Virus record (IMG/VR): IMGVR_UViG_3300044577_000140
Span: 1-22,795 of that record
Direction: 5' to 3' (one strand)
DNA: 22,795 nt
From: a virus
Shown here one piece after another: positions 5,657 through 22,795 of the stretch (position 1 is the first letter of the stretch; every line of letters starts with the position of its first letter). The notes under the pieces were generated by a model. That model saw only the letters and a list, made by a program, of their open reading frames with translations. It made no database searches and was not told where the DNA came from. A program made the position numbers and the translations under genes.

Positions 5657-8600
5657 TGCTCCGGCACGTGTCATCGTTGCTGCGCAACCTGTGGCTGGAC
5701 GAGTCCGGCGGCAGTGAGGGTGCGCGGCTGGGTCTCGGCCTCGGCGGCGCGGCCATCGGGTTCGCGTTGCTCGGCCCGTTCGGCGCCTCGGTCGGATTCC
5801 TGGCAGGCCAGACGGTGGGTAATATACTGTTCCCACAGGAGCTGCCAGACATAGACGGCCCGCGCCTGGAGGGCAGCCGTAACATGACCGCGTCCTATGG
5901 GGATCCGATTAGGATCGCGTATGGCAGGGTCGTGTGCGGTACCTCCCTGACATACTACCCCGGGTTTGAGGAGCACGTTACAACGGAAGAGTCCGGCGGT
6001 AAGGGTGGAGGCCCCACGCAGACCTCCAGGAGCTACACGTACACCGGCGACTTCGCGGTGGATGTGTGCGAGGGCCCGGTGGACTCCATTCTGAAGATAT
6101 GGGCCAACAAGAAGCTCATATACAACGCTGAGGGCACGACGAATCCTATAGTGGATGTGGCGCGGCTGAACAGGGCGCCGGGCGCGAACGCCATACGCCT
6201 ATACCTCGGTACCGAGACTCAGTTGCCGGATCCTACGGAGACGGCGGACAAGGGCGTGGCAGCCACGCCTGCCTACAGGGGCACGGTCCGCGCGTTCTTC
6301 CAGAACTACCCGCTGGATGATACTAGCGGCGTGCCCCCTGAGATACTAGTTTTGGTGGCCACTAATGCCACGGAGGTGCTGTCTACGACCACCGTAGACA
6401 ACCCGGGGGAGGGCGACGCCGCGTGGGAGTGGCAGCCCGGACTAAACTCCTGGCTGATAATGAGCATGTCCAGGGTAGACAACGCCTCACAGAGGGTGAT
6501 TACTACTGACTCCAGCGTCAACGGGGACCAGCTGTTCCCTTGCGCAGATAGGAGTGGGAACTTCTGGTCTGTATCCCGGGGTCGCTCGTTCCGCAAGTAC
6601 GACGGCATCACGCTGAAGCAGATCGGCGCGACCCAGACGTGGCTGGACCCCTTCGACGGCACGGGCATAGGTGATGACAGTCTACGCTGGGAGGACGGCA
6701 TTGTGTTCGGGGGCATACGTATGCCGGACGGCACCATGGCTAGTGAGAAGCTGTTCTTCGCAGAGCAATACTTCGGGGGCGACCAACCCATAGTCGTGGT
6801 GGACCTCGACAACTGGGATCAAGGGGACTTCGGCGGCGTCATAAACACATACCTGCAGCTGGACGAGCTGGAACCCACCCTGGTCGTGGACGAAGACGGG
6901 TACTGCTGGTTCATATCCCAGAACGGTGGTATATCCACCCTGTCCAGGGTGAGCCCGGGCGACGGAAGCGTGGTGGAGACCCACGCGTTGGATACGTCAT
7001 ATGGGGACATAACGTTCGATCGACTGACGAACAGCATAATCTGCATCAAGGCGCTGAGCCACATGATACGCTGGAGCGTGGACAGCAACTCCGAGACGGC
7101 GCGCCTGGTCTTTACCGACAAGTTCCCCGTCACTTCGTCCGGTAAGAACCTAACGGCGTACCGTGCTGGCGTGAACCAGGACGGCAGGATATTCATACAG
7201 ACTGGGGCCTCACTAGGGGAGACCACGGAATTCTACGTGCAGGGCGTCATGTCGCAAGGCAGGTCCTACTCTATGGGAGGGGACTTCGGCCTGCCCTCCT
7301 CTACGACACACCGCGGCTTCTTCGACGAAAGCCGTAACGCGATCATTAAGAGGCACGATACTACGGGCGACATATTCTATCTGTACCTGGACCGCAAGAC
7401 CGGCGGCACGATCACTGTGAAGGAGATAGTGGACGATGTGTCCGCCAGGGTAGGACTAGCGGCCTCGGACATAGTGACCACCAACCTGACCGACACGCTG
7501 CATGGGTACCTGATAGATCGACGCATGCCGGCCCGCAACGCGCTCGAGCCTTTGCGCAAGTTCTTCTTCTTCAACCCGGTGGAGGAGGACTTCGTGGTGA
7601 AGTTCCCGAAGCTAGGGGGCGCGTCGGTCGCCACCATACCGAACGATGACCTGGCCGCGGGGGAGGGGGGACCGAGGAACACCGTGCAACGCCTGGAGGA
7701 GGACGTGGTCCAGGTGACCGAGCTGCCGGAGCTGCTGGAGCTCACCTATGCGAACGCGCTCGGGGAGTACCTGCCGATAGTGCAAAGGGCCAAGCGCCCG
7801 CGCGCCACGACCAACTCCAGGAGGCGGAGGAACATGACCTTCCCCGGCACCTTCCTGACCAACGAGGACGCTGCCCGGAGGCTGGAGACCTTCCTGTACA
7901 ATATATGGACCAAGCGCAGGCCGATAAGTATCAGCGTGTCCCAGAAGTGGCTGACGCTCAGTCCCGCCGACGTGGTGGACGTCGTGGAGGGTGGCGTGAC
8001 ACAGGAGGTCGTGCTAGGCGACGTGGCCGTGGGCGCCAACAACGTCATCGAGATGAAGGGAGCGGCAGACGACCCGTCCACCCTGGTCAGCGCGGCCACA
8101 GGTGAGGACGCCGATACGCCCGTGCAGGTCCTGGAGTTCACCGCGGCCTCCGCGATCTTCATACTGGACATACCGCTGCTGCGCGACGTGGATGACGGGT
8201 TCGGAGTATACGTGGCGGCTGGCCCGCTAAATAACCTGGCGTGGCCCGGCGCTGAGGTCCTGCGGTCCTCGGACGGCACGCTATACTTCCCGCTAAGCTT
8301 CGTGGCCAGTCCCCGGGAGGTAGGCCACGGGTTCGCCGCGGCGGCCCTGGCCACGGCCACGGACGAAGGCGTATTCGACAGGACCAACACAATACAGATA
8401 ACCATGTTCAACGGTACCCTGCCGTCCTCCACGGAGGCGCTCGTGCTGGATGGTGCCAACGCACTGCTGATCGGCAGCGAGGTGGTGAACTACGTCACGT
8501 CGGTCGACGACGGCAACGGCCTGTTCACCATATCCACGCTGTTGCGCGGGCGCGCGGGCACTGAGGGGGAGATGGGCAGCCACGTAATATCCGAGAAGGT

Positions 8601-9117
8601 GGTGTCCCTGGAGGATACGTCGCTGATACGCAAGCCGCTGGACGTGTCCGACAAGGACGTCGCGTTCTTCTACAAGGGCGTTACCCGGGGCGGCGCGCTG
8701 AATGACGGGGCTTCCCTGCGCAAGTCGGTTACCGTCCTGGGCAAGTCGCGGTGGCACCGGGCCGCGGCCCATACGCGTGGCACCATAACGTCGGACGACT
8801 GGACCATACTCTGGGACTGGAGGGCAATAATCAACGGCTCGTGGAAGAACCTGGTGGGTGTGCCGCCCGGCATAGTCCTGGACTTCGAGGTCGACGTACT
8901 CAGCGGTCCGGCAGGCACGGTGCTGGCCACGTACACGTCCACGATCACCGCGAACGGTTCGGTGGTCACGGACGCCACCGCGACCTTCTTCTACGACGAC
9001 GCGGACCAGGTCGTCGACTTCGGAGCGGTGCAGACCACACTGACCGTCAAGATATACCAGGTAGACCTCGTGGTGGGCCGCGGCTTCCCACGGGAAGTCA
9101 CACTGGTGGGAGGCTGA
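5656..9117 (+). CDS. Large tail tip / hub protein (GTA gp15-like, Phage-tail_3)
   Basis: The start is placed at the ATG in TGATG with the peptidase stop, giving 1153 residues; the longer open frame upstream only runs over the peptidase gene. Residues about 65-150 (IDGPRLEGSRNMTASYGDPI, SYTYTGDFAVDVCEGPVDSI) and about 180-225 (TETQLPDPTE, TPAYRGTVRAFF) match the N-terminal hub part of gp15/J-like tip proteins. Residues about 256-585 are an insertion with repeated D-x-x-G-x-x-W/F blade-like motifs, read as a beta-propeller. Residues about 590-790 fit the Phage-tail_3 region (LRKFFFFNPVEEDFVVKF, KRRPISISVSQKWLTLSPAD). The end carries LLRGRAGTE and beta-rich, probably receptor-facing sequence. 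Residues about 29-55 are glycine-rich and hydrophobic. It should cap the tail and contact the receptor. No TIM-barrel motif was recognised. Confidence 0.9.
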   Translation: MLRHVSSLLRNLWLDESGGSEGARLGLGLGGAAIGFALLGPFGASVGFLAGQTVGNILFPQELPDIDGPRLEGSRNMTASYGDPIRIAYGRVVCGTSLTYYPGFEEHVTTEESGGKGGGPTQTSRSYTYTGDFAVDVCEGPVDSILKIWANKKLIYNAEGTTNPIVDVARLNRAPGANAIRLYLGTETQLPDPTETADKGVAATPAYRGTVRAFFQNYPLDDTSGVPPEILVLVATNATEVLSTTTVDNPGEGDAAWEWQPGLNSWLIMSMSRVDNASQRVITTDSSVNGDQLFPCADRSGNFWSVSRGRSFRKYDGITLKQIGATQTWLDPFDGTGIGDDSLRWEDGIVFGGIRMPDGTMASEKLFFAEQYFGGDQPIVVVDLDNWDQGDFGGVINTYLQLDELEPTLVVDEDGYCWFISQNGGISTLSRVSPGDGSVVETHALDTSYGDITFDRLTNSIICIKALSHMIRWSVDSNSETARLVFTDKFPVTSSGKNLTAYRAGVNQDGRIFIQTGASLGETTEFYVQGVMSQGRSYSMGGDFGLPSSTTHRGFFDESRNAIIKRHDTTGDIFYLYLDRKTGGTITVKEIVDDVSARVGLAASDIVTTNLTDTLHGYLIDRRMPARNALEPLRKFFFFNPVEEDFVVKFPKLGGASVATIPNDDLAAGEGGPRNTVQRLEEDVVQVTELPELLELTYANALGEYLPIVQRAKRPRATTNSRRRRNMTFPGTFLTNEDAARRLETFLYNIWTKRRPISISVSQKWLTLSPADVVDVVEGGVTQEVVLGDVAVGANNVIEMKGAADDPSTLVSAATGEDADTPVQVLEFTAASAIFILDIPLLRDVDDGFGVYVAAGPLNNLAWPGAEVLRSSDGTLYFPLSFVASPREVGHGFAAAALATATDEGVFDRTNTIQITMFNGTLPSSTEALVLDGANALLIGSEVVNYVTSVDDGNGLFTISTLLRGRAGTEGEMGSHVISEKVVSLEDTSLIRKPLDVSDKDVAFFYKGVTRGGALNDGASLRKSVTVLGKSRWHRAAAHTRGTITSDDWTILWDWRAIINGSWKNLVGVPPGIVLDFEVDVLSGPAGTVLATYTSTITANGSVVTDATATFFYDDADQVVDFGAVQTTLTVKIYQVDLVVGRGFPREVTLVGG

Positions 9118-11772: not shown

Positions 11773-14700
11773 ATGGCTGATACAAAACTATCCGCACTTG
11801 CGCTCGGCGTACTAGCCGAGGCAACCGAGATATACCTCAATGCGACTGGTTCCAGGCGGACCACGTTTACTGCGGCGCGAGACTTCTTGCTGACGGCGGC
11901 GTGCCGCGCCAACTGCGTGGCCGCTACCACCGCCGCCCAGGTCCTGGCCGACGACTTCGAGTCGGGCGACGTCATAGACGGTGTGACCCTGGCGCTGGCG
12001 GATCGCGTGCTCATAAAGAACCAGACGCTCGGCGAGGAGAATGGCATATACACTGTCAACGTCGCCGCGCCGCCCACCCGCGCCACCGACTTCGACACCG
12101 ATGCCGAGGCCGTCTTAGGCGCCCTGGTCGCCGTGTCGGGCGGTACCGCCAACGGCACGAGCGTCTGGATGCATAGCACGACCGGCGCCATCACCCTGGA
12201 TACCACGCCCCTAACGTTCGCCGAGCTCCTGGCCGCCTCCAACTTCCTGCAGCTGGCTGACACCCCCAGCAACTACACGGCCGATAGCCGCAAGTTCCTC
12301 AGGGTGAACGATGCCGAGAACGCAGTGGAGTTCGTGGCCGAGCACAACAAGGAGCCGGTCAAGTTCGCCACGACCGCCGCTCTCACGCTGGCCGACGACT
12401 TCGAGAACGGCGACCCCCTGGACGGCGGCACCCTTACCACGGGCGACCGCATCCTGATAAAGGATCAGGCGTCCGGTGCCGAGAATGGTCTCTACACCGT
12501 CCAGGGCTCCGGCGGTCCCGTGCGCGTGCCAGACATGGACGACGACCCGGACGTGGTGCAGGGCATGACTGTGGCCGTCCTCCAAGGCACCGCGAACGCC
12601 AACTCCATATTCCAACTGACCACCACCGGCGCCATAACGCTGGACGTCACGGCCCTGACCTTCGTGCAGATAAGCGGCGGCGGTGGGGCCAGCGACTTCC
12701 TGAGCCTGACCGACGTGGACCCCAGCTCCTACTCGGGCCAGTCCGGTAAGTCTGTCAACGTGAACACGGCGGAAGACGGACTGGAGTTCCTCATTCCTTC
12801 ACCTGGGGGAACCGTGGTTGGTGCGCCGTTCTCCGGTGCCGTAGTGAAGAACGCATCTAATCTAGCGGGGAATTTCCAATCTGCGGCTGATGCCGTCACC
12901 TTCGATACTGAGACATATGACATAGGTGGGTGGCATAGCACCTCAGTCAACACCGAAAGACTTACGGTCCCCGCTGGTATAAACAAAGTGAGGATGACGG
13001 CAGCCATCAGAGATGTTGGAGCTTCGGCAGAGCAATGGGCTTTCGCAGAGTTCCGAAAGAACGGCAGCGTTGCTGTGGGCACCTCAAGGTCTATTGTCGA
13101 TGTGGGCGCTAATCCAGCTATGACATTGGCCTCTCCGGTTCTAGATGTGGTGGAGGGAGACTACTTCGAACTCTTTTACCAAATCCAAACCGACACATCG
13201 TCGGACCTTCTCGCGATAGGAACGCATTTTTCCATAGAGGCCGTCGAGGCCGTAGCCCCGTCGTCCAAGGTAATCGGGCCGTGGCTTGAGCTCGACCGGC
13301 AGACGGCGGTCGCCTCGTCAGAGATAGACTTCACGTTTGATCCGGCTCTCTATGACGAGATAGAGGTTGCCATATCCGGTCTCCACTCCTCTTCTGATAG
13401 TGACACCCTGGACTTCCTAGTGTCAACAAACGGCGGCGTCAGCTTCCTAGGTGGGAGTAATTACAGACATGTTCGAGCTGCCCTGTCGGATGGCGGGGGC
13501 AGTGGTGCTGAGGCCTACGCCGGTGTGACGAGTGACTCGACCATTCAACTATCTGGCAGCTCATCGATCAGTAACGTAGCTACAGAGGTCTTCTCAGGGA
13601 CTGTGACACTGCACGAGCCATCCGCCATCGTGTCAAAAGTCGTTGCTTGGTCTCTCCAGGCACAAACATCGGCGGACGTGGCGCAACAGCATGAGGGAAC
13701 GGGACATCTAATATCCGATACTGCCGCTATAAATGCCATCAGGTTCATCCTGGTGACGGGGAACCTGACGGGGCAGTTCATCCTGCGCGGTCGGCCCAAG
13801 GCGGGAGTGGACTTCTTCCACGCAACGCCGGTCAACGGCGTGGGCCAGCCGTTCAAGGGCGCGCTGGTCAAGATGACCGCCGACCTGGCGGTCAATACCC
13901 AGGTGACCCAGTTGATAGCCTGGGAGGAGATCGTCTACGACCTCGGCGGGTTCTGGTCCTCCCTCACCCCGTCTCGCCTCACCGTTCCTGCCGGCGTCAC
14001 CAAGATTCGGCTGAACGCCGCCGTGTACGACTCCACAGGAGGTGCTTCGGACTTCAACCTATTCCAGTTCCACAAGAACGGCGCCCTGTTCACCGGGTCC
14101 AGCACTCTCAGGAACCATCCCGATATTGGGACCCACCTGCTCTCGATAGCCTCCCCCGTCGTCGAGGTGGCTGAAGGGGACTACTTCGAGGCGTTCTACC
14201 AGCAACAAAGTGATACCTCCTCGACCATCAACGCGGTGAGGTCCCACTTCTCCGTAGAGGTGGTGGAGGGCATCGCGACCAGCAACACTCCGCGCGGCGC
14301 CATGGTCAAGCCTGCGGCCGACATCATCGGGGCGAACTACACGGCACAGACGGCAGTTCCATTCGACGCCGAGGTCTACGACACGGACAGCGTCCACAGT
14401 ACCAGCGTGAACAACACGAGGCTCACCGTCCCGGCCGGCGTCACCCACGCCCGCGTGCACTTTAACGTCAGGCTGAACAACATCGTCGAGGGCCAGTACA
14501 CCAGGGTGGACATATTCAAGAATGGGTCTGGTACCTTCGACGGCGCCACAACGCTCAGGGCCGACAACGCGGGGACGGGGCAGGGGTTCTCCATAAGTAC
14601 GCCGGTCCTGGAGGTCGTGCCGGGGGACTACTTCGAGGGCTTCGTCCTCATAGAGACGGAGACGACGATAGACGTGACGGCGAACCAGACCTCCCTCTCA

Positions 14701-17118
14701 ATGGAGTTCATCAACGACGCGCTCATCGTGGCGACCACCGATCCCAGCGCCGTGGGCGTCCCGTTCAAGGGCGCCCTGCTACAGATCGATAGCGATTTCA
14801 CTCTAGTCGACGTCACTACAACGACCATAGACTGGGGGAGTGCCACTTACGATGTTGGTGGATGGTTTAGCTCCGGAGCAGTCTCTCGTCTTACAGTTCC
14901 GGCGGGCGTCACCAAAGTGCGAGTCAGTTCCAACCTCGCTATGACTGCATGGGGTACTGGCGTCAGGTTCATTGGATTTTTGCAGAAGAACGGTGCTGAT
15001 GTTAGGGGCGGCTCCTTTAGCGATATGACGGGAGACCCCAACAATCAGGTTGCGATTAACCTGACCAGCGCCGTCCTCAATGTGGTTCCTGGCGACTACT
15101 TTGAGATCAGAGCGTTTCAGGATAGTGCTGGCAACGAGACTTTGGGCCCGGCCAGTAGGGGAGAATACAACTGGTTCTCCATAGAGGCCGTTGAGGCCAT
15201 CGCCCCCTCGACGGCAATCCGCGGGGCCTTGGCCACTCTTGTGGCGGATGACATAGGCGTGAACTTTGTGGGCGCCGCTGCTGTCGTGTTCGACAAGGAT
15301 GTATACGATACCGACAGCATCCACGACACCGTTTCGAACAACACTCGCCTGACGGTTCCGGCGGGAGTCACGCATATTCGTCTAAACTTCAATGTCCATC
15401 TAAGCAACATTATCACTAATGAGTTCACAGTTATCTCTATCCGAAAGAATGGGAGCCTTGACTGGGATGGCGTCGCTACCCAACGATCCGATGCCAACTC
15501 TTCTATTGCTCAATTGAATGCCATAACTGGAGTGGTCGAGGTGGTTCCCGGTGACTACTTCGAGGCCTTCATTCAGATTGAGGCCGAGACGACGGTAGAC
15601 GTGAATGCCAGCAGAACGAACTTCGGCATGGAGATCGTAGAGCGGACCGCCCTCGTCCAGGCTCCGGCAACTGGCAATACCTTCAAGGGCGCCCTGGTCA
15701 ACTTGGCCGCTGACGAGGTGGACACAGTCAACTACACATCACCCGTGGCGATCGCGTTCGACGAGGAGGAGTACGACATCGGAGGTTGGCATGACGATGT
15801 GACCGATAATGAGCGTCTGACCGTCCCCGCTGGTGTGACCAAGGTGCGCGTCAACGGCCAGGTGCTGCTGATAACAGGCGTGTCCGGGGACTTCCTGCAG
15901 CTGGAGATCCGCAAGAATGGATCCGGCGTCTACATAGGCTCCGCATTCACGAAGGTCGAGCCCAATTCCACCACGCAGTACGGAAACGTGACGACCTCCG
16001 TGATAGACGTGGTGGAGGGGGACTACTTCGAGCTGGCCCTAACGGTGGAGTCCGACACCACCATCACCGTAAGGAGCGACCGCACGTCCTTATCCATAGA
16101 GGCCGTAGAGACCGTCGCCCCCTCTACCAATCCGCGCGGCGCCCTCGTCACCCTGGCCGCGGATGAGGTTGACGCGGACTATACCACCGCGACGGCAGTT
16201 CCGTTTGACGCCGAGCAGTACGACACGGATACCGTTCATGACAACTCCACCAACAATACTCGCCTTACAGTTCCGGCGGGTGTCCGACACATCCAGCTGG
16301 TCGGACAGGTACAAGCGTCCAGCGTCATAGCGGACGAGTGGATGCAGATCGACATCCGCAAGAACGGCAGCGCGGCGTATATCGGCTTCGCGCAACAGAT
16401 GAACGAGATCGGGAAGACCGAGAGCGGCACGCAAGTCGTCTCACCTATTCTTGAGGTGATCGCGGGGGACTACTTCGAGCTGTTCCTGCGAGTGCAGACC
16501 GAGGCCACGATCACCTTGGTCGATGACCAGACGTGGTTCGCCATGGAGATCGTCGAGCCGGCAGTTGTTACCGGTAACACCGGGATGCAGTTCATAGAGA
16601 AGCAAGAGGGCAGCAACCAGGCGTCCATGGACTTCACTGGGTTCAACTCCACGCTGTATGACTCCTACCTGTTCGTGATCGCGAATCTCGTACCTGCGAC
16701 CGACAACGTGAATTTTCAGATAAGGACGTCCGGCGACGGGGGAAGTACATTCGACAGCGGAGGCTCCGACTACGCCCGAAACAGGGCCGGTCGAACCGAC
16801 GCCGCCGCGAATGACGTGTGGCTCACGAGGGGCGAGGCTACGGCCACGGGAATCGCCGTGACATCCAACGAGAATATCGGCAGCGCGGCCAATGAGGACG
16901 GACTGTCGGGCGAGTTCAAGATATTCGGTCCGCACCTGGCCAAGAGAACCATAGTCGCGTTTGACGTACACTACTTCACCTCGGCGGGTAACCTGGAGAT
17001 AGATATTGGGAATGGCATGAGGGATGAGGCTGCCGCGGTGGACGCCGCACAGTTCCTCTTCGCCTCCGGCAATATCGAATCCGGTACGATCACAATGTAT
17101 GGGCTACGAAACTCGTAG
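11773..17118 (+). CDS. Giant multi-domain tail fibre-like protein with seven C1q-like modules
   Basis: This 1781-residue protein is the largest product here and probably a tail fibre or side fibre that contacts the host. The N-terminal anchor (MADTKLSAL ... ATEIYLN) is a common phage fibre start. Residues about 47-152 and 197-300 are two copies of a module with LADDF(E)xGD, DRxLIKxQ and ENGxYTV. Each is followed by a linker of the type LADTPSNYTADSRKFLRVN or LTDVDPSSYSGQSGKSVNVN. From residue 350 onward come seven beta-rich modules of about 150 residues with YD, R/ERLTVPAG, KNG and GDYFE landmarks, read as C1q-like jelly rolls (inference). A different module occurs twice, at residues about 500-680 and 1603-1781 (FVIANL...GGSTF, ASGNIESGTITMYGL). 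Base composition varies between modules. The ATG lies three bases after the previous stop. No autoproteolytic chaperone or enzyme motif was recognised. Confidence 0.82.
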   Translation: MADTKLSALALGVLAEATEIYLNATGSRRTTFTAARDFLLTAACRANCVAATTAAQVLADDFESGDVIDGVTLALADRVLIKNQTLGEENGIYTVNVAAPPTRATDFDTDAEAVLGALVAVSGGTANGTSVWMHSTTGAITLDTTPLTFAELLAASNFLQLADTPSNYTADSRKFLRVNDAENAVEFVAEHNKEPVKFATTAALTLADDFENGDPLDGGTLTTGDRILIKDQASGAENGLYTVQGSGGPVRVPDMDDDPDVVQGMTVAVLQGTANANSIFQLTTTGAITLDVTALTFVQISGGGGASDFLSLTDVDPSSYSGQSGKSVNVNTAEDGLEFLIPSPGGTVVGAPFSGAVVKNASNLAGNFQSAADAVTFDTETYDIGGWHSTSVNTERLTVPAGINKVRMTAAIRDVGASAEQWAFAEFRKNGSVAVGTSRSIVDVGANPAMTLASPVLDVVEGDYFELFYQIQTDTSSDLLAIGTHFSIEAVEAVAPSSKVIGPWLELDRQTAVASSEIDFTFDPALYDEIEVAISGLHSSSDSDTLDFLVSTNGGVSFLGGSNYRHVRAALSDGGGSGAEAYAGVTSDSTIQLSGSSSISNVATEVFSGTVTLHEPSAIVSKVVAWSLQAQTSADVAQQHEGTGHLISDTAAINAIRFILVTGNLTGQFILRGRPKAGVDFFHATPVNGVGQPFKGALVKMTADLAVNTQVTQLIAWEEIVYDLGGFWSSLTPSRLTVPAGVTKIRLNAAVYDSTGGASDFNLFQFHKNGALFTGSSTLRNHPDIGTHLLSIASPVVEVAEGDYFEAFYQQQSDTSSTINAVRSHFSVEVVEGIATSNTPRGAMVKPAADIIGANYTAQTAVPFDAEVYDTDSVHSTSVNNTRLTVPAGVTHARVHFNVRLNNIVEGQYTRVDIFKNGSGTFDGATTLRADNAGTGQGFSISTPVLEVVPGDYFEGFVLIETETTIDVTANQTSLSMEFINDALIVATTDPSAVGVPFKGALLQIDSDFTLVDVTTTTIDWGSATYDVGGWFSSGAVSRLTVPAGVTKVRVSSNLAMTAWGTGVRFIGFLQKNGADVRGGSFSDMTGDPNNQVAINLTSAVLNVVPGDYFEIRAFQDSAGNETLGPASRGEYNWFSIEAVEAIAPSTAIRGALATLVADDIGVNFVGAAAVVFDKDVYDTDSIHDTVSNNTRLTVPAGVTHIRLNFNVHLSNIITNEFTVISIRKNGSLDWDGVATQRSDANSSIAQLNAITGVVEVVPGDYFEAFIQIEAETTVDVNASRTNFGMEIVERTALVQAPATGNTFKGALVNLAADEVDTVNYTSPVAIAFDEEEYDIGGWHDDVTDNERLTVPAGVTKVRVNGQVLLITGVSGDFLQLEIRKNGSGVYIGSAFTKVEPNSTTQYGNVTTSVIDVVEGDYFELALTVESDTTITVRSDRTSLSIEAVETVAPSTNPRGALVTLAADEVDADYTTATAVPFDAEQYDTDTVHDNSTNNTRLTVPAGVRHIQLVGQVQASSVIADEWMQIDIRKNGSAAYIGFAQQMNEIGKTESGTQVVSPILEVIAGDYFELFLRVQTEATITLVDDQTWFAMEIVEPAVVTGNTGMQFIEKQEGSNQASMDFTGFNSTLYDSYLFVIANLVPATDNVNFQIRTSGDGGSTFDSGGSDYARNRAGRTDAAANDVWLTRGEATATGIAVTSNENIGSAANEDGLSGEFKIFGPHLAKRTIVAFDVHYFTSAGNLEIDIGNGMRDEAAAVDAAQFLFASGNIESGTITMYGLRNS
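11911..12672 (+). repeat. Duplicated LADDFE-GDR-NGIYTV module with linker
   Basis: There are two copies, 11911-12228 and 12361-12672. Shared landmarks are LADDFESGD / LADDFENGD, DRVLIKNQ / DRILIKDQ, ENGIYTV / ENGLYTV and TTGAITLD. At DNA level, CTGGCCGACGACTTCGAG is identical in both. The joining segment holds the first of two LxxxDxxPSxYxxxxxKxxxVN linkers; the second follows copy two. This module pair is typical of phage fibre shafts. Confidence 0.85.
12820..16578 (+). repeat. Array of seven C1q-like modules in alternating A/B subtypes
   Basis: Approximate modules: R1 12820-13269, R2 13840-14280, R3 14281-14751, R4 14752-15216, R5 15217-15669, R6 15670-16131, R7 16132-16578. R1, R2, R4 and R6 are subtype A: they start with PFSGA, PFKGA or TFKGA and have YD(I/L/V)GG(W/F). 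R3, R5 and R7 are subtype B: they start with RGA and have YDTD(S/T)(V/I)H, then NNTRLTVPAGV. R2-R3, R4-R5 and R6-R7 are therefore three two-module super-repeats. Every module carries GDYFE near its end. R1 is separated from R2 by an unrelated domain at 13270-13839. Confidence 0.86.
13270..13839 (+). repeat. Fibre domain copy 1 of 2 (second copy 16579-17115)
   Basis: This domain of about 180 residues occurs here and again at the C-terminus of the same protein. Shared pattern: an xDFTFxxxLYDxxxxxISxL start, then D(S/N)(D/V)xxF and NGGVSF / DGGSTF, a Tyr-Arg or Tyr-Ala-Arg step, a beta-rich middle, and an ending (AIRFILVTGNLTGQFILRG / AAQFLFASGNIESGTITMYG). Similar domains end many phage structural proteins. 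Copy 1 is internal and copy 2 is terminal, so they bracket the six paired C1q-like modules. Confidence 0.78.
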
Positions 17119-17153: not shown

Positions 17154-17792
17154 ATGGCTGATACCAAACTGTCTGCACTCGCGAGCGCCACGCTCACCGA
17201 GGTGGACACCCTCTACATCGAGGATGGCGGCACAAGTAAGAAGGCCACCGTCGCTGAACTGCGGACGGCGCTGTGCCCGAAGGGGTTCGTCCCGATGCCG
17301 CTTGGTCTCTTTCGAATTATCGGTGACGATACAGCGGATGAGATCGGAGACCTCGCAGCGAACGCCGGTCTTCTGGCCAATGATGCCACTCCGCTCTTGG
17401 AGCGTGTCAGCACTAGCACGGACAAGGCGCTGCGTATTGCATGGGCGGCGTCGGACGTGACCGAGATGCAAGCGGACCCGGTCATGATGCCGCCGGACTT
17501 GGCCGAGACCGTGGATGTAACCATCCACCTGCTTGCCCAAATGTCCGGTGCGACCGACACCCCCACCATTAACGCTGAGGTGTTCGATGCTGTGGGTGAC
17601 ACGGAGATGGGTGGAGTCACGGCTGCGCTGTCTGCCTCAATTCAGGAGCTGACAGTAACCATCGCCAACGCTGACATCTCAGGCAATCCGCTCGGGTTCT
17701 TCAATGTCTCGTTGATCCCCGGCGCGCATGGCACAGACATCTTGTGGCTGTATGGCGCGTGGATGGAATACACCCGCAAGCTGCCGGTGTGA
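17154..17792 (+). CDS. Putative structural protein sharing the fibre N-terminal anchor
   Basis: This 212-residue protein begins MADTKLSAL and continues L.E.D.LYIEDGG.SKKATVAEL, the same anchor as the giant protein upstream. The ATG lies behind GGGAGAAG, a clear ribosome site in the only real gap (35 bases) of the plus-strand operon. After a short linker the body (residues about 45-212) fits a beta-rich phage structural module: RIAWAASDVTEM, MMPPDLAETVDVTIHLLAQM, GATDTPT, then SLIPGAHGTDILWLYGAWMEY near the end. That ending is familiar from other phage tail proteins. It could be a second, short appendage using the same docking site, or a shortened fibre. The gene ends in TGATG with the peptidase gene. 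Confidence 0.75.
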   Translation: MADTKLSALASATLTEVDTLYIEDGGTSKKATVAELRTALCPKGFVPMPLGLFRIIGDDTADEIGDLAANAGLLANDATPLLERVSTSTDKALRIAWAASDVTEMQADPVMMPPDLAETVDVTIHLLAQMSGATDTPTINAEVFDAVGDTEMGGVTAALSASIQELTVTIANADISGNPLGFFNVSLIPGAHGTDILWLYGAWMEYTRKLPV

Positions 17793-18268
17793 TGATCCTC
17801 TGGCCTCCTCGCGGCTACACCGCCTTGGTGCGACGCAACCCCTCGCTGTCCATGGCAGGGGTTGCGTCGGCCGAGGTGCCGGAGCCGGCCTGGGACGAGC
17901 TGCACGAGGTCAACTCCCGCGTGAACTTGTCCGCCAGGTACGAGCCCGACCCGCCGGGCAAGGATACCTGGGGCCAGTTTAGGCTGGTGAATGGCCTCAG
18001 GGCGGGCGACTGCGACGACTTCGCGGTGCGCAAGCTGAAGCAGCTGATGTACCTGGGGTGGCCGCGCGGCGCCGTGCGGCTAGCCACCTGCCTGGTGGAT
18101 GGCACGGGACACTGCGTCCTCCGCGTCGCCACTAAGGGGGGCTCGATGGTGCTAGACAACAGACACGCCGGCATAGCGCCACCGCACCACCGCCTATACT
18201 CGGACTATGCGTGGATCGGGGAGGAACTGCCCGGCAGCCCATTCTGGTGGAGGAAGATCTCACAATGA
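17792..18268 (+). CDS. Transglutaminase-like cysteine peptidase (BTLCP family, LapG-like fold)
   Basis: This 158-residue protein matches the bacterial transglutaminase-like cysteine proteinase family (PF06035). The conserved blocks are in order: a VNSRVNLSARYEPD start, KDTWGQ, then GDCDDFAVRKL with the nucleophile C74, GHCVLRV with H107 and VLDNR with D122, so a full Cys-His-Asp triad is present. In bacteria this fold includes LapG, which cuts surface adhesins in the periplasm. No signal peptide is visible, so in a phage the enzyme could be virion-borne, act on host proteins at lysis, or work in the cytoplasm. The start is the ATG in TGATG with the previous stop. It ends in an ATGA overlap with the lipoprotein gene. 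The family is confident; the substrate is unknown. Confidence 0.88.
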   Translation: MILWPPRGYTALVRRNPSLSMAGVASAEVPEPAWDELHEVNSRVNLSARYEPDPPGKDTWGQFRLVNGLRAGDCDDFAVRKLKQLMYLGWPRGAVRLATCLVDGTGHCVLRVATKGGSMVLDNRHAGIAPPHHRLYSDYAWIGEELPGSPFWWRKISQ

Positions 18269-18828
18269 ATAAGATACTTATGGCCGCCTTCGCGGCATTA
18301 ATACTGATGGGATGCACGGCTTCGGATCCCGGACTGGCGCAGGTCGCGGTGGACGAGGCACTGCCCGTGGCGGAGGAGCACCGCCCGCTCCGCATATGCC
18401 TGATCTCGGCCATGTCTGTGGAGCTGATGGTGGACCGCGTCCGGCTGTTCGAGCCGAGCAAGGCCGAGGAGACACTGGGACGACTACTCACCCTGCAGGG
18501 CGCCATGGAGGATGCCCGGATGGCCGATCCCATGTGGCGGAACACGGACATGGCGGACGTCCTATTTACCTTCTCGAGCGTCGTGACCGACACCGTGCGC
18601 GAGCGGGCGAGGGGCTACCTGTCCAGGGGGTTATCAGCGGGGTCCGTAATAACGGGGGCCAAGCGGGTGAGCGCGCAGAAGGTTAAGGCCCACGCCATGC
18701 TGAGGGACATAGGCATCATGATGGATTCCATGGTCGCGGGCAAGGTCACCGAGTCGGAACTCTGGCTGGCGTGCGAATCGCGCGTGGCTCACAACGAACG
18801 GCGTATAAGGAACCTACTGGGTCTTTAG
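18265..18828 (+). CDS. Predicted phage lipoprotein, function unknown
   Basis: The start is set at the ATG overlapping the peptidase stop (ATGA), giving 187 residues; a longer in-frame start at 18211 would lie inside the peptidase gene and spoil the signal peptide. Residues 1-16 form a lipoprotein signal (MNK, a hydrophobic core, then LMG before C17). Met at the -2 position of the lipobox is less common but acceptable. Thr follows the cysteine, so no inner-membrane retention Asp is present and outer-membrane sorting is expected (inference). The mature part is mostly helical and charged, with no second membrane segment, so it does not look like a unimolecular spanin. An o-spanin, an exclusion lipoprotein or a partner of the neighbouring hydrolases are possible. 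I do not recognise a family. Confidence 0.72.
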   Translation: MNKILMAAFAALILMGCTASDPGLAQVAVDEALPVAEEHRPLRICLISAMSVELMVDRVRLFEPSKAEETLGRLLTLQGAMEDARMADPMWRNTDMADVLFTFSSVVTDTVRERARGYLSRGLSAGSVITGAKRVSAQKVKAHAMLRDIGIMMDSMVAGKVTESELWLACESRVAHNERRIRNLLGL

Positions 18829-18830
18829 CC

Positions 18831-19505
18831 ATGAATACCGATCAGATCTTGGCCCGACTGTCCGAGCTCGCCTACTACGACGGCGTGCGGGCGCGGCTGC
18901 ACGAGCTCGGCATGGAGTTCGTATGCCCGCCGTTCGACCACGCCGGCTCGCAGGGCATGCTAGTTCGCAGCCGAGACATGGCGGCACTGGTCTTCAGGGG
19001 CACCGAGGCGAGCGCGGGCAGCGTCAGCGACATAACTAGCAACCTGGGTGTGCCCGTGCGCTGGGCCGGCAACGGCCGAGCCCACAGTGGGTATGCCCGA
19101 CACTTCTCTATGATCCGGTACGAAGCCAGGAAGATGGCCGAGCTCGTGCCGTCCGAGATCCCCCTGTACGTGACCGGACACTCGATGGGCGGGTGCCTGG
19201 CCACACTGTATGCCTCTTGGGTCGGATCTGGCAGCCCCGAGGACCACTGGCTCCACGCCTTGGTCACCTATGGTGCACCGAAGGCGTTGTCCGTCAGGGC
19301 CCTCGCCGACATGCACTGTAAAGCCGGAGCCCGCCGGTACACGAACAAGTATGACTTCGCGCCGCACTGGCCGCCGGTACTGGGCCTAACGCACCCCAAG
19401 TTACGCGTGAGAGTGGACAGTGGCGGCTGGCCGGGTCCAGTATCCAGGCACGGCGCCGACCGGTACGTGGAGGCAGTAGACCTACTGTGCGAGAGGGAGG
19501 CCTGA
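18831..19505 (+). CDS. Lipase class 3-like alpha/beta hydrolase
   Basis: This 224-residue protein has the layout of a class 3 lipase. LVFRGTE (residues about 53-58) fits the oxyanion-loop strand and YVTGHSMGG holds the nucleophile elbow with S118. VTYGAPKA follows as in the family, NKYDFAPHWPP supplies D175 at the usual acid position, and SRHGADRYV gives H207. A full Ser-Asp-His triad is therefore visible. No signal peptide or membrane segment is apparent. The start is the ATG two bases after the lipoprotein stop; the open frame extends upstream, but only through the lipoprotein gene. Substrates could be host phospholipids or other esters of the envelope. Its place in a late operon next to a peptidase and a lipoprotein suggests release or envelope damage (inference). 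Confidence 0.87.
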   Translation: MNTDQILARLSELAYYDGVRARLHELGMEFVCPPFDHAGSQGMLVRSRDMAALVFRGTEASAGSVSDITSNLGVPVRWAGNGRAHSGYARHFSMIRYEARKMAELVPSEIPLYVTGHSMGGCLATLYASWVGSGSPEDHWLHALVTYGAPKALSVRALADMHCKAGARRYTNKYDFAPHWPPVLGLTHPKLRVRVDSGGWPGPVSRHGADRYVEAVDLLCEREA

Positions 19506-19506
19506 C

Positions 19507-19728
19507 ATGGACACCCGCCTAGCCGATATACAGGGTCTGGTCGAGCGGATCGACGAGCGTACGGTCATAACGCATGACCTAATGAAGGCTCACATAGAGC
19601 GCGACGACGAGGTACATGATGCGCTGAATAATCGGATCAACAAGCTGTACATATGGGCCGCCGGTGGTGGGCTATCGGTGACGGCCGCCGGCACGGTGGC
19701 GTGGTTCAAGGGCTTGTTGGAGTTCTGA
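19507..19728 (+). CDS. Small coiled-coil plus one-membrane-segment protein (XhlA-like)
   Basis: This 73-residue protein has a charged helical N-terminus (residues about 1-46, with IQGLVERIDERT, IERDDEVHDAL and NNRINKLY) followed by one membrane segment (about 48-70, IWAAGGGLSVTAAGTVAWF). This resembles the XhlA haemolysin / holin-associated class of small phage proteins. It follows the lipase stop by one base and precedes the metallophosphoesterase by 23 bases. It may help lysis or anchor a partner at the membrane. Resemblance is at the level of layout, so the family call is modest. Confidence 0.68.
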   Translation: MDTRLADIQGLVERIDERTVITHDLMKAHIERDDEVHDALNNRINKLYIWAAGGGLSVTAAGTVAWFKGLLEF

Positions 19729-19751: not shown

Positions 19752-21446
19752 ATGGCTCGGTACGATAAGGTGGAAGACGCGGAACTCCGCAAGGACCTTG
19801 ACGCCTACTACGAGTGCGAGGGCAACAAGGCCGAGGCGGCCCGAGCACGCGGGCTGAAGTACACGACATATAAGAGCCGCCTGGACGTGGCCACCAAGCG
19901 CCTCGGCACAAAGCTGGGCAAGGTAGTCGGCGGCCGCGTGGAGCAGGTCACCAGCCAGCGGTACAAGCTGCCGAAGAAGGAGCATGTCAACTACTACATC
20001 CTCACCTCCGTCCAGAACAACACCAAGCTGCACCCCGGATTCAACAACCTGATGGGGTACTCCGAGTGGCTGGACGGGCGAAAGTTCTCCTCCTGCAAGT
20101 TCATGGTCGGCACCTTCACCTACGACCTCGCGTCCTACGGCGAGAGGAGCGTCAAGAAGGGCAAGGTCAAGGGACAGCGCGACCTCTGGTATGCGAAGGA
20201 GATAGAGGACTACATTGTGGACGAGAGCGTGGAGCTCGCGCCCGGCCTCTTCTGGTGCGGCGAGCAGAACATCCTGCCGACCGCAAAGCACCCACTCACG
20301 GCCATGGAGGACTACAACGGCCGCGCCTCCAACCTGGTACCCCACACCAAGATAGCCATGGAGAGTGTCCCGTCCATGGCTGACGAGGCGACGAAGTTCA
20401 ACTACTCCACCGGCGCGGTCACGCAGCGCAACTACATCCAGAAGCGCGCCGGCATCATAGCCGAGCAGAACCACGACTACGGCGCCCTGATCGTGTGCGT
20501 GGATAGCGGCGGCAACTGGTGGGTCCGGCAGCTCTACATCGGGCCGGACGACGAGGTCCTGGACGTGGGCCCGCCCGACTGCATCGGCGTGCGCGTGCAG
20601 GCCGGCTCCGTCACCGAGGAGCACGTGACCGAGGGCATCAACTGGGGTGACATACACGCCTCGGAGATGGAGCTCTGGGTGCGCGAGCTGGCGTGGGGCG
20701 AGGGAGGCATGCTCGATATGCTGCAGCCGTCCTACCAGTTCATGAACGACCTCTACTCCATGCGGTCGCGGACGCACCACGAGATGCGCGACTTCCACCG
20801 GATGTACGAGAAGCACAACTATGAGGAGGAATCCGTCGAGGACGAGATCACGCTGACGGCCGACTTCCTAGTGGAGGCATGCCGGGACGACTGCGAGACG
20901 GTGGTGGTGCCGTCGAACCACGACCGCCATCTCGATCGCTGGCTGAACGAGGCCGACTTCCGGCTGGACCCGCTCAATGCCCGGTTCTTCTGCGCCGCCC
21001 AGTACGCCATGCTGACGGCGATAGATACAGGCGACAGGGACTTCAATATACTGGAGTGGGCCATACAGAGGTCCGTGACAGGACACGACATGCTTCCTAC
21101 AGAGGCAGCCTCGAAGTTGGATGTTAGGTTCCTCGCCACGGATGAGAGCTTCGTCATAGGCAAGAGGAAGGGTGGCCGGGGCGGTGTGGAGTGCGGGCTC
21201 CATGGCGACCTGGCAGCTAACGGCGCCAGGGGCTCCACGCAGGCGCTGACCAAGCTAGGCCGGGCGCTCAACAAGGGCCACGACCACGCGGCCGCCATAC
21301 GCGGCAGGGTCTTCTCCGCCGGGGCATGCGCCCTGAACCTGGCATACATGAGGGGTCCAAACTCCCAGTCCGTCAGTCACATAGTGACCTACAAGAACGC
21401 AGCCCGGGCGATCATAACCATGTGGAACGAGGCCTGGCGGACCTGA
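19752..21446 (+). CDS. Calcineurin-like metallophosphoesterase with helix-turn-helix-like N-terminus
   Basis: The start is taken at the ATG behind a GGGAG ribosome site (19741-19745), giving 564 residues; the open frame continues upstream only across the previous gene. Metal-binding motifs appear in the expected order: GDIH (D300, H302), SNHD (N389, H390, D391), LHGD (H484) and GHDH (H510, H512). The second Asp of the usual GD(x)xD step is not obvious between the first two. Residues about 10-52, with GNKAEAARARGLKYTTYKSRL, look like a DNA-binding helix-turn-helix. The C-terminus is beyond the last metal motif by about 50 residues. Enzymes of this fold include nucleases and phosphodiesterases. 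Length and fold recall the T5 A1 pre-early protein, but I cannot verify homology. Likely activity: nuclease or phosphodiesterase; target unknown. Confidence 0.83.
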   Translation: MARYDKVEDAELRKDLDAYYECEGNKAEAARARGLKYTTYKSRLDVATKRLGTKLGKVVGGRVEQVTSQRYKLPKKEHVNYYILTSVQNNTKLHPGFNNLMGYSEWLDGRKFSSCKFMVGTFTYDLASYGERSVKKGKVKGQRDLWYAKEIEDYIVDESVELAPGLFWCGEQNILPTAKHPLTAMEDYNGRASNLVPHTKIAMESVPSMADEATKFNYSTGAVTQRNYIQKRAGIIAEQNHDYGALIVCVDSGGNWWVRQLYIGPDDEVLDVGPPDCIGVRVQAGSVTEEHVTEGINWGDIHASEMELWVRELAWGEGGMLDMLQPSYQFMNDLYSMRSRTHHEMRDFHRMYEKHNYEEESVEDEITLTADFLVEACRDDCETVVVPSNHDRHLDRWLNEADFRLDPLNARFFCAAQYAMLTAIDTGDRDFNILEWAIQRSVTGHDMLPTEAASKLDVRFLATDESFVIGKRKGGRGGVECGLHGDLAANGARGSTQALTKLGRALNKGHDHAAAIRGRVFSAGACALNLAYMRGPNSQSVSHIVTYKNAARAIITMWNEAWRT

Positions 21447-21622: not shown

Positions 21623-21910
21623 TCACCCTCCGATAATTATGATCGCGTTGCTAGTGACTATCGCCAGATAGCCCACGCACACCACGCCGGCGTTGATGAC
21701 GGTCTTGCGAGTCCGCCTGAACAGGATGAACCACGCCACCAAGAGGTGCAGCGCCATCTTCGGCGCCAGCCAGTACGACCCCAACGCAGTCACGAGGTAG
21801 GCCACAAGGGGGTTGGCCTCTATGTGGCCCGCGGACAAAGCCCACTCCGTGGTCAGTGCATCGGCTCCTCCGAGTAGGAGCGCGGTGGTAGCTAGAATCC
21901 GATAGATCAT
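21623..21910 (-). CDS. 95-residue membrane protein, DUF5658-like
   Basis: The start is the ATG overlapping the stop of the upstream gene (ATGA at 21910-21907), preceded by a GGATGGGAAA stretch. A longer in-frame start would run back across that gene and is rejected. Three membrane segments are visible: residues about 4-22, 34-62 with an internal polar Lys (LAPKMALHLL), and 70-93. The motif ADALTTEWALSAGHIEANPLVAY follows the D..TT...L..G..EANP pattern of DUF5658-type small membrane proteins. In a lysis cluster it is a holin or antiholin candidate. The motif match is clear by eye, but the function of the family is not established. Confidence 0.72.
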   Translation of the reverse strand: MIYRILATTALLLGGADALTTEWALSAGHIEANPLVAYLVTALGSYWLAPKMALHLLVAWFILFRRTRKTVINAGVVCVGYLAIVTSNAIIIIGG

Positions 21911-22101
21911 TTTCCCATCCACCTTCCCGTGACCAGCCTGTACCCGATCGCCGCGATGAGCGTGACCGGGCCGAGGGCGACCAGTATCATGTAGACGCCC
22001 GGGGACAGGTTGTTGGTCGTCCTCTTGTCCCGCCTGACAACGAGCTCGCCTATGAGGAGGCCCGCGGTGACCCAGGCAGCCCACGTCCAGAACAGGCTCA
22101 T
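21907..22101 (-). CDS. 64-residue membrane protein with two membrane segments (holin candidate)
   Basis: Two hydrophobic segments (residues about 3-21 and 34-57) are joined by a basic loop (VVRRDKRTTNN). The chain ends in basic residues (RWMGK). Size and layout fit a class II holin, which has two membrane helices and a charged C-terminus. The ATG overlaps the stop of the upstream gene (ATGA at 22101-22098) and its own stop overlaps the start of the next gene the same way. The ribosome site is weak, so coupling to upstream translation probably matters. Placement two genes behind the endolysin supports a lysis role; no family was recognised. Confidence 0.7.
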   Translation of the reverse strand: MSLFWTWAAWVTAGLLIGELVVRRDKRTTNNLSPGVYMILVALGPVTLIAAIGYRLVTGRWMGK

Positions 22102-22283
22102 GACACTGCCAACATCACCAAGGCCCCAATTACCGCGAGAGCTACGAGGACGATGAAGAATATGTCCCCGTCGCTGAATTCGCTCACATCATCGCAGTAG
22201 GCCTCGAAGTCCCGCAAGTCGTCCGAGGTCATGTCGGGGTGGGGGGCGAGCTCGTCCGTGTCGGTTGTCCGGTACTCGGTCAT
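22098..22283 (-). CDS. 61-residue protein with acidic N-terminus and C-terminal membrane anchor
   Basis: The first 38 or so residues are soluble and acidic (TTDTDELAPHPD, DDLRDFEAYCDD). Residues about 40-60 (DIFFIVLVALAVIGALVML) form one membrane helix ending at the C-terminus. The ATG at 22283 overlaps the endolysin stop (ATGA) and is preceded by GGAGGA, five bases upstream. A tail-anchored acidic small protein next to a holin candidate could be an antiholin or a regulator, but this is inference from context. I do not recognise a family. Confidence 0.68.
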   Translation of the reverse strand: MTEYRTTDTDELAPHPDMTSDDLRDFEAYCDDVSEFSDGDIFFIVLVALAVIGALVMLAVS

Positions 22284-22795
22284 GTCGTCCTCCCTAGTTC
22301 TGACGTCCTGTACGCCTCGGTCCTGCGCAGGAGCTCGCCCACATCGAACGAGGGACAGTCCTTGGGCGGCGCGCCCGTCAAAGCTATCAGGTCCCGGTGC
22401 CCGAGCACGGTCACGTCCTCGAACCTCGGGTGCAGTTCCAGGAACCTGCAGATGCCGAGGATCAGCGTGGCGCCCTGTGACAACGTGAAGTTATCCTCCG
22501 CCGGTGTCGACCAGGACCTGTTTTCATCCGAGAAGGACCGGTAGGCCACGCCGCCGGATAGCGCCACGCCGAAGCTGCGTCCATTCCAGCCGCGGCCACA
22601 GCTCCCCACATGGGCGCCGGACTCGCCGATCGGTCGGCATGGGAAGCCGCCGTCCGCGTCCTGCCACTCGCCCTGTCGGGTTATGATCGCATGGTAACCA
22701 TTCATCCTCCACCCACGGATCCTGTGGATCCGGTCTACCCACGCCGCGTCGACGTCGGTCTGGGGTGACGTGGCCGTGCAGTGCACGACCAGGTG
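22280..22795 (-). CDS. N-acetylmuramoyl-L-alanine amidase endolysin, 5' end outside window
   Basis: This is a T7 lysozyme-type amidase (Amidase_2), which cuts the bond between N-acetylmuramic acid and L-alanine in peptidoglycan. The reading frame stays open to the window edge, and HLVVHCTAT precedes the apparent GTG start, so the gene continues upstream and is partial here (at least 172 codons). Counting from that GTG codon, the expected zinc ligands are H2, H130 (VLGHRDL) and C144 (PKDCPSFDV). The catalytic Tyr (Y31, GYH) and Lys (K142) are also present. GAHVGSCG and NGRSFGVALSGG are further family blocks. It is the first visible gene of the minus-strand lysis chain, with the small membrane genes coupled behind it. 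No signal peptide can be judged because the start is missing. Confidence 0.93.
   Translation of the reverse strand, partial: HLVVHCTATSPQTDVDAAWVDRIHRIRGWRMNGYHAIITRQGEWQDADGGFPCRPIGESGAHVGSCGRGWNGRSFGVALSGGVAYRSFSDENRSWSTPAEDNFTLSQGATLILGICRFLELHPRFEDVTVLGHRDLIALTGAPPKDCPSFDVGELLRRTEAYRTSELGRTT

Follow-up and report, generated by a model that had tools for sequence, protein, structure and literature searches.

When a cysteine peptidase, a lipoprotein and a lipase are encoded by coupled genes in a phage, the question arises as to what these three proteins do together and whether they take part in lysis of the host. The locus of this kind considered here lies in a 22,795-bp IMG/VR fragment (the whole of which is referred to as the window) from a phage that is siphovirus-like and has a tail module of the GTA type. 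The closest named relatives of its A1 protein are mostly phages of alphaproteobacteria, and the phage probably infects a Gram-negative host. Known outer-membrane disruptors include spanins and disruptins. About 13% of Gram-negative tailed phages lack a recognisable spanin, and whether they have other disruptors is described as an open question (PMC12819732); the role of phage lipases, according to a 2024 review, is yet to be elucidated (PMC10975011). A sequence-only reading of the window had proposed that the trio could supply outer-membrane disruption by cleavage of proteins and lipids.

The three coupled genes and their surroundings

On the plus strand, the fibre genes are followed in order by genes for a BTLCP-type peptidase, a lipoprotein, a lipase, a small transmembrane (TM) protein and an A1-like protein. 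The junctions of the block are start/stop overlaps (TGATG, ATGA) or gaps of 1-2 bp. A 1781-aa fibre protein, composed of numerous modules that repeat around the motif RLTVPAGVTKVR, is encoded at 11773-17118. The fibre-like gene directly upstream of the peptidase gene (17154-17792, plus strand) ends in a TGA (17790-17792) that shares one base with the ATG of the BTLCP gene (17792-18268, plus strand). The latter encodes 158 aa and matches PF06035 (C93) with an E value of 1.7e-19, above the 27-bit cut-off. Its residues C74, H107 and D122, which form the C-H-D triad within the PF06035 profile, are invariant in a 3-way alignment, and its sequence matches the LapG-type structure PDB 4fgo (E 5e-8). 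The protein start lies a few residues ahead of a PPRGY motif, and no signal peptide was found from any start in the reading frame, which opens at 17675. Many viral BTLCPs are split (L090, L092, L093, L095, L098, L099, L102, L110 and others), the missing N-terminal motif P..GY..[YF]C...C being borne by a tiny upstream lipoprotein ORF (e.g. L098 9735-9884); the BTLCP of the window, unlike these, is not split.

The lipoprotein gene (18265-18828, plus strand; 187 aa) has the ribosome-binding site GAGGAAG, and its ATG at 18265 and the stop codon of the BTLCP gene overlap in the sequence ATGA. The signal ends in a clean lipobox (ILMG↓C) with Thr at position +2, so that by the +2 rule the protein is probably located in the outer membrane. 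It is predicted to be all-helical, with C45 and C170 as its conserved cysteines. Neither a Pfam match nor a usable PHROG match was obtained for it, and a weak structure prediction (pLDDT 66, from two sequences) gave no fold match. It lacks a C-terminal hydrophobic segment and is hence not a unimolecular spanin, for which a C-terminal TM segment is expected; no other lipoprotein ORF was found by a lipobox scan of the 22.8-kb window.

The lipase gene (18831-19505, plus strand; 224 aa) begins 2 bp past the lipoprotein stop. Its product matches PF01764 (E 2.6e-14) and phrog_21992 (E 3.7e-15) and belongs to the class 3 lipases, as it contains the GxSxG nucleophile elbow and the Ser-Asp-His triad of the family profile (S118, D175 and H207, invariant among 17 phage lipases). 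A Pfam scan gave Lipase_3 and no cutinase family, and the protein is therefore not a cutinase-like esterase of the LysB type. Its AlphaFold model (pLDDT 87) resembles class 3 lipases/esterases of fungi as well as PLA1 of plants (best E 4e-11), and the structure of a T6SS lipase effector (9cys) is also among its matches. No signal peptide was found in the lipase. The earlier description of a complete triad in both enzymes, of an apparent outer-membrane lipoprotein, and of consecutive genes that overlap or nearly abut is thus borne out.

Downstream of the block, the gene at 19507-19728 (plus strand) encodes a small protein with an N-terminal helix and one C-terminal hydrophobic segment; it has no family match and is the positional counterpart of the phrog_6420 proteins preceding A1 in relatives. 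A small protein with a C-terminal TM segment is found before A1 in the window, in L040 (9571-9837) and in L006 (7732-8040), whatever lysis genes are present, and belongs to phrog_6420 in the latter two. The window protein was considered as an i-spanin and rejected, since its TM segment is C-terminal and its positional counterparts coexist with spanins. It is followed by the gene for a T5 A1-like DNA transfer protein (19752-21446, plus strand; phrog_1745, E 1e-140). The genes beyond A1 (21623-22795) are on the minus strand, opposite to the trio as had been noted. They encode a 95-aa DUF5658 membrane protein (21623-21910; PF18902, E 1.5e-11) and a small hydrophobic protein (21907-22101), both holin candidates, the second by its sequence; a small protein with a C-terminal TM segment that neighbours the lysis genes (22098-22283); and an amidase endolysin (22280-22795; phrog_822, E 1.6e-28), whose N-terminus is cut by the contig end. 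The endolysin is thus on the opposite strand and about 2.8 kb from the block.

The position of the block in related phages

The layout in which a slot is flanked by the tail hub on one side and by A1, its right-hand anchor, on the other is common to twelve loci, some of them near-duplicates. A slot endolysin was detected by our panel in nine of these, and the slot of a tenth, Rhodobacter phage RcSimone-Hastad (L002), contains a cell wall hydrolase that is annotated but was missed by the gene caller. The remaining two loci are the window and L040, in both of which the endolysin is positioned after A1. In six lineages (L002, L006/7, L008/9, L016, L041 and L043), an o-spanin lipoprotein is encoded just ahead of the small TM gene and A1. 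This lipoprotein overlaps a visible i-spanin in most of the lineages (in L016 only the o-spanin is clear), and the PHROG models for Rz-like spanins match at least one partner in each of the six, in some cases weakly. In the window and in L040, it is the BTLCP-lipoprotein-lipase block that occupies the position of these spanin genes.

No spanin pair was found either in the 22.8-kb window, in agreement with the sequence-only reading, or in the 94-kb L040 record. The lipobox scan used for this purpose detects the o-spanin in 6/6 control slots, and in the window and L040 its sole credible candidate was the trio's own lipoprotein; two further regex matches in L040 look spurious, one of them being antisense inside another gene. 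The lipoprotein of the window is not adjoined by an i-spanin and is thus not part of a two-component spanin.

L040 (IMGVR_UViG_3300037247_000961; 94,430 bp) was retrieved by scanning IMG/VR with an A1 alignment. Its gene order is a fibre-like gene, BTLCP, a 107-aa membrane protein, lipoprotein, lipase, small TM gene and A1. The fibre-like gene (6524-7246) is homologous to and syntenic with that at 17154-17792 of the window (E 1.9e-73 to L040 6512-7243); it has an apparent signal peptide start, MLKRLCTAALLLALVATAPYPLYA, which is missing in the window homologue. The BTLCP (L040 7313-7840), lipoprotein (8106-8921) and lipase are 48%, 36% and 57% identical, respectively, to those of the window (the lipase of L195 is 46% identical), and the A1 proteins are only 41% identical. 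Because the two blocks are co-linear, chance adjacency of the three genes is ruled out. The window A1 is closest (62-63%) to loci that bear spanins in place of the block, and the block therefore looks like an exchangeable module.

The three genes are also linked in L206 (IMGVR_UViG_3300037515_000743), where a GH24 lysozyme (7030-7470) is followed by a lipoprotein (7492-7809), a lipase (7806-8567) and a BTLCP (8560-9099). From the lipoprotein onward, the stop of each of these genes overlaps the start of the next, and the gene order differs from that of the window. The gene following this BTLCP (L206 9069-9617) encodes a signal-peptide protein with a weak HNH/GmrSD-C match, possibly an exported nuclease within the lysis operon. 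In a T4-like contig (L099, the record behind L189), a lipase, a GH108 endolysin, a small lipoprotein and a BTLCP lie within 4.3 kb. Co-occurrence in other phages had been set in advance as a check on the trio, and it is found in both L040 and L206; of the two results that would have spoken against the proposal, neither a spanin pair in the window or L040 nor an unlinked arrangement of the genes in relatives was observed. Nothing close was retrieved by single-protein scans of viral contigs with the lipase, BTLCP or A1, or by tblastn of the lipase and lipoprotein against named phages. The tblastn search with the BTLCP yielded only Rhizobium phages (~34%), and no matches to the lipoprotein or lipase were obtained in prophage scans of genome contigs.

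Phage class 3 lipases and viral BTLCPs in general

Four phage lipases used as queries yielded 80 loci in about 41 non-redundant groups, and 42 whole lipase records were searched with Pfam endolysin families. This gave 14 endolysin matches (GH24, GH19, GH108, M15_3 and GH25), and none to Amidase_2. Of these matches, 8/14 lie within 1.5 kb of the lipase, always on the same strand, compared to 1.31 expected by random placement (P 5e-6), and for matches above the curated cut-off the proportion is 7/11 (P 1.6e-5); some of the endolysin families were chosen after being seen beside lipases, although far matches would count equally. Similarly, 10/41 groups have a lipoprotein ORF no more than 400 bp from the lipase, as against 3.0 expected (P 2e-4), and the arrangement recurs with unrelated lipoprotein sequences. 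Phage class 3 lipases are hence statistically linked both to endolysins and to lipoproteins. One example of such an arrangement is L017, with the order lysozyme, small TM protein, holin-like protein, lipoprotein and lipase, and a GTGA overlap. This linkage, the homology of the slot in relatives and the position of the L206 cluster behind a lysozyme place the block in the lysis cassette.

However, the lipase need not replace spanins, because in L156 (3025-4604) it is followed directly by an intact spanin pair (phrog_739 and phrog_812). In two other loci the lipase comes after tail fibre genes and is immediately followed by an exported protease that is trypsin-like, by Pfam in L137 (7665-9859) and by sequence only in L166 (7836-10108); therefore, lipases and proteases are combined repeatedly near genes for fibres or lysis, and the protease family is not always the same.

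A BTLCP is present in 3/42 lipase records, each time within 3.3 kb of the lipase. However, viral BTLCPs are not enriched near endolysins (4/28 non-redundant loci observed, 3.2 expected), and the idea that they are lysis genes as a class was dropped on this account. For the same reason, the role of the peptidase is the weakest part of the lysis reading. In river viruses, BTLCP is reported to be the commonest "auxiliary metabolic gene" and to be transferred from one phage group to another (PMC11283719). Its cellular relative HvyA limits capsulation and alters phage sensitivity (PMC4241560), and the phage BTLCP may therefore act on the cell surface rather than in rupture.

Proposed role of the block, alternatives and known systems

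The interpretation that we favour, with a probability of about 0.55, is that the trio is a late lysis sub-module which carries out an enzymatic attack on the outer membrane of a Gram-negative host and which in this lineage takes the place of the spanin pair. The lipoprotein would be exported via Sec/Lol and anchored before lysis, probably on the periplasmic side of the outer membrane. As the lipase and BTLCP have no signal peptides and only the lipoprotein is exported alone, both enzymes must be released by the holin; they would accumulate in the cytoplasm together with the amidase until the holin opens the inner membrane and all of the enzymes reach the periplasm at once. The endolysin would then strip the peptidoglycan, the lipase, which the lipoprotein may recruit or activate, would hydrolyse inner-leaflet lipids of the outer membrane, and the BTLCP would cleave envelope proteins on which the cohesion of the outer membrane or surface layer depends. 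The pair of lipase and lipoprotein is the strongest element of this scheme and the BTLCP the least certain. The earlier proposal of outer-membrane disruption accordingly gains from the linkage of the trio in two phages and from its position in the spanin slot, and it is weakened by the coexistence of lipase and spanins in L156, by the distribution of BTLCPs and by the location of the window's endolysin on the other strand.

A different function for the two enzymes would be a post-lysis one, in which they strip surface polymers, adhesins or receptors from debris and neighbouring cells, thereby freeing the progeny, and are dispensable for rupture. Both being signal-less, they would be active only after the inner membrane opens, and BTLCPs of known function, e.g. 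HvyA, work on cell surfaces (PMC4241560). An enzyme of Bacillus phage phiNIT1, as cited in PMC12173070, is released at lysis and degrades extracellular polymer, and viral BTLCPs are widespread without linkage to lysis (PMC11283719, and our own count of 28 loci). However, this explanation accounts neither for the location of the block in the exact spanin position of its relatives nor for the coupling of the lipase to a lipoprotein that is exported before lysis, and we consider it unlikely. It is also conceivable that the three are unlinked cargo genes sharing an insertion hotspot behind the tail fibres, for which the frequency of BTLCP in river viruses and its mobility between phage groups (PMC11283719) could be cited. 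However, the same three genes are coupled in two arrangements in different phages, their active sites are conserved and the link between lipases and endolysins is non-random, all of which make this possibility quite improbable.

The block comes after tail fibre genes, and its first start codon overlaps the fibre-like gene, as could be expected if the products were virion-borne entry enzymes that open the outer membrane locally at infection. However, the slot in relatives is a lysis cassette and not a structural one, the lipoprotein has a signal peptide, and lipases elsewhere adjoin endolysins and holin-like genes. A role in entry, like the clearing of debris, is thus less likely than the lysis sub-module, and it is in our view very improbable. 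Tli lipoproteins protect against T6SS lipase effectors. An analogous pair, in which the lipoprotein keeps the lipase in check until it is needed or guards the infected cell against the lipase of superinfecting phages, would agree with the recurrence of unrelated lipoproteins beside lipases and with the match of the lipase model to 9cys, but the lack of a secretion system (no T6SS gene was seen in the window) and of a signal, the location of such pairs in lysis cassettes and the fact that an exported inhibitor would counteract lysis leave it with the slightest probability of all.

Returning to the favoured interpretation, the cassette connects spanin-less phages with phage lipases through concrete genes and mutable active-site residues, and the trio could be introduced into existing lambda lysis test systems that lack Rz/Rz1. 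If correct, it would account for many phage lipases that are at present orphans (phrog_21992 is classed under "other") and would provide a new source of enzymes for opening the Gram-negative outer membrane from inside. We further suggest, tentatively and with somewhat more doubt than confidence, that there may be a further class of outer-membrane disruptors, viz. a lipoprotein-tethered lipase with a partner peptidase, acting enzymatically in spanin-less phages and recurring in unrelated phages with interchangeable parts (a BTLCP or a trypsin-like protease, and different lipoproteins).

Other families already include known lipolytic proteins of lysis, and in the full-text literature on BTLCP, lipase and phage, or on class 3 lipase and phage, no account of this cassette was found. 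Like mycobacteriophage LysB, which in Ms6 is needed for efficient lysis, the lipase is a predicted phage esterase encoded with lysis genes and would act on an outer lipid layer (PMC5707550). However, the target of LysB is the mycolic-acid layer of mycobacteria, whereas in the present case a class 3 lipase is combined with a lipoprotein and a cysteine peptidase, probably in a Gram-negative phage. The patatin cassette of phage WO similarly contains a lipolytic enzyme and a holin-like protein and has been proposed from sequence to replace canonical lysis (PMC9203015), but its enzyme is a patatin-type phospholipase, it includes an ankyrin protein, and it lacks an endolysin, a peptidase and a lipoprotein. 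In a Pseudomonas syringae phage, a GDSL lipase is encoded upstream of the holin and endolysin, i.e. likewise within a Gram-negative lysis cassette, and a domain of it, when joined to an endolysin, shows antibacterial activity dependent on the active site (PMC12173070). However, this enzyme belongs to the GDSL family and not to Lipase_3, and a coupled lipoprotein or BTLCP is not reported for it. The peptidase shares the C93 fold and the C-H-D triad with the LapG and HvyA proteases and matches PDB 4fgo in sequence, but these cellular enzymes are exported by Sec signals and work in the periplasm prior to lysis, whereas the phage BTLCP has no signal. Based on these comparisons, it can plausibly be claimed that the cassette represents an additional means by which the Gram-negative outer membrane is breached. 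Although the two-component spanins (Rz/Rz1) act non-enzymatically by membrane fusion, and neither an i-spanin nor a short overlapping o-spanin is found in the window or the 94-kb L040 record, the block has in common with them the genomic slot, the proposed job and one apparent outer-membrane lipoprotein.
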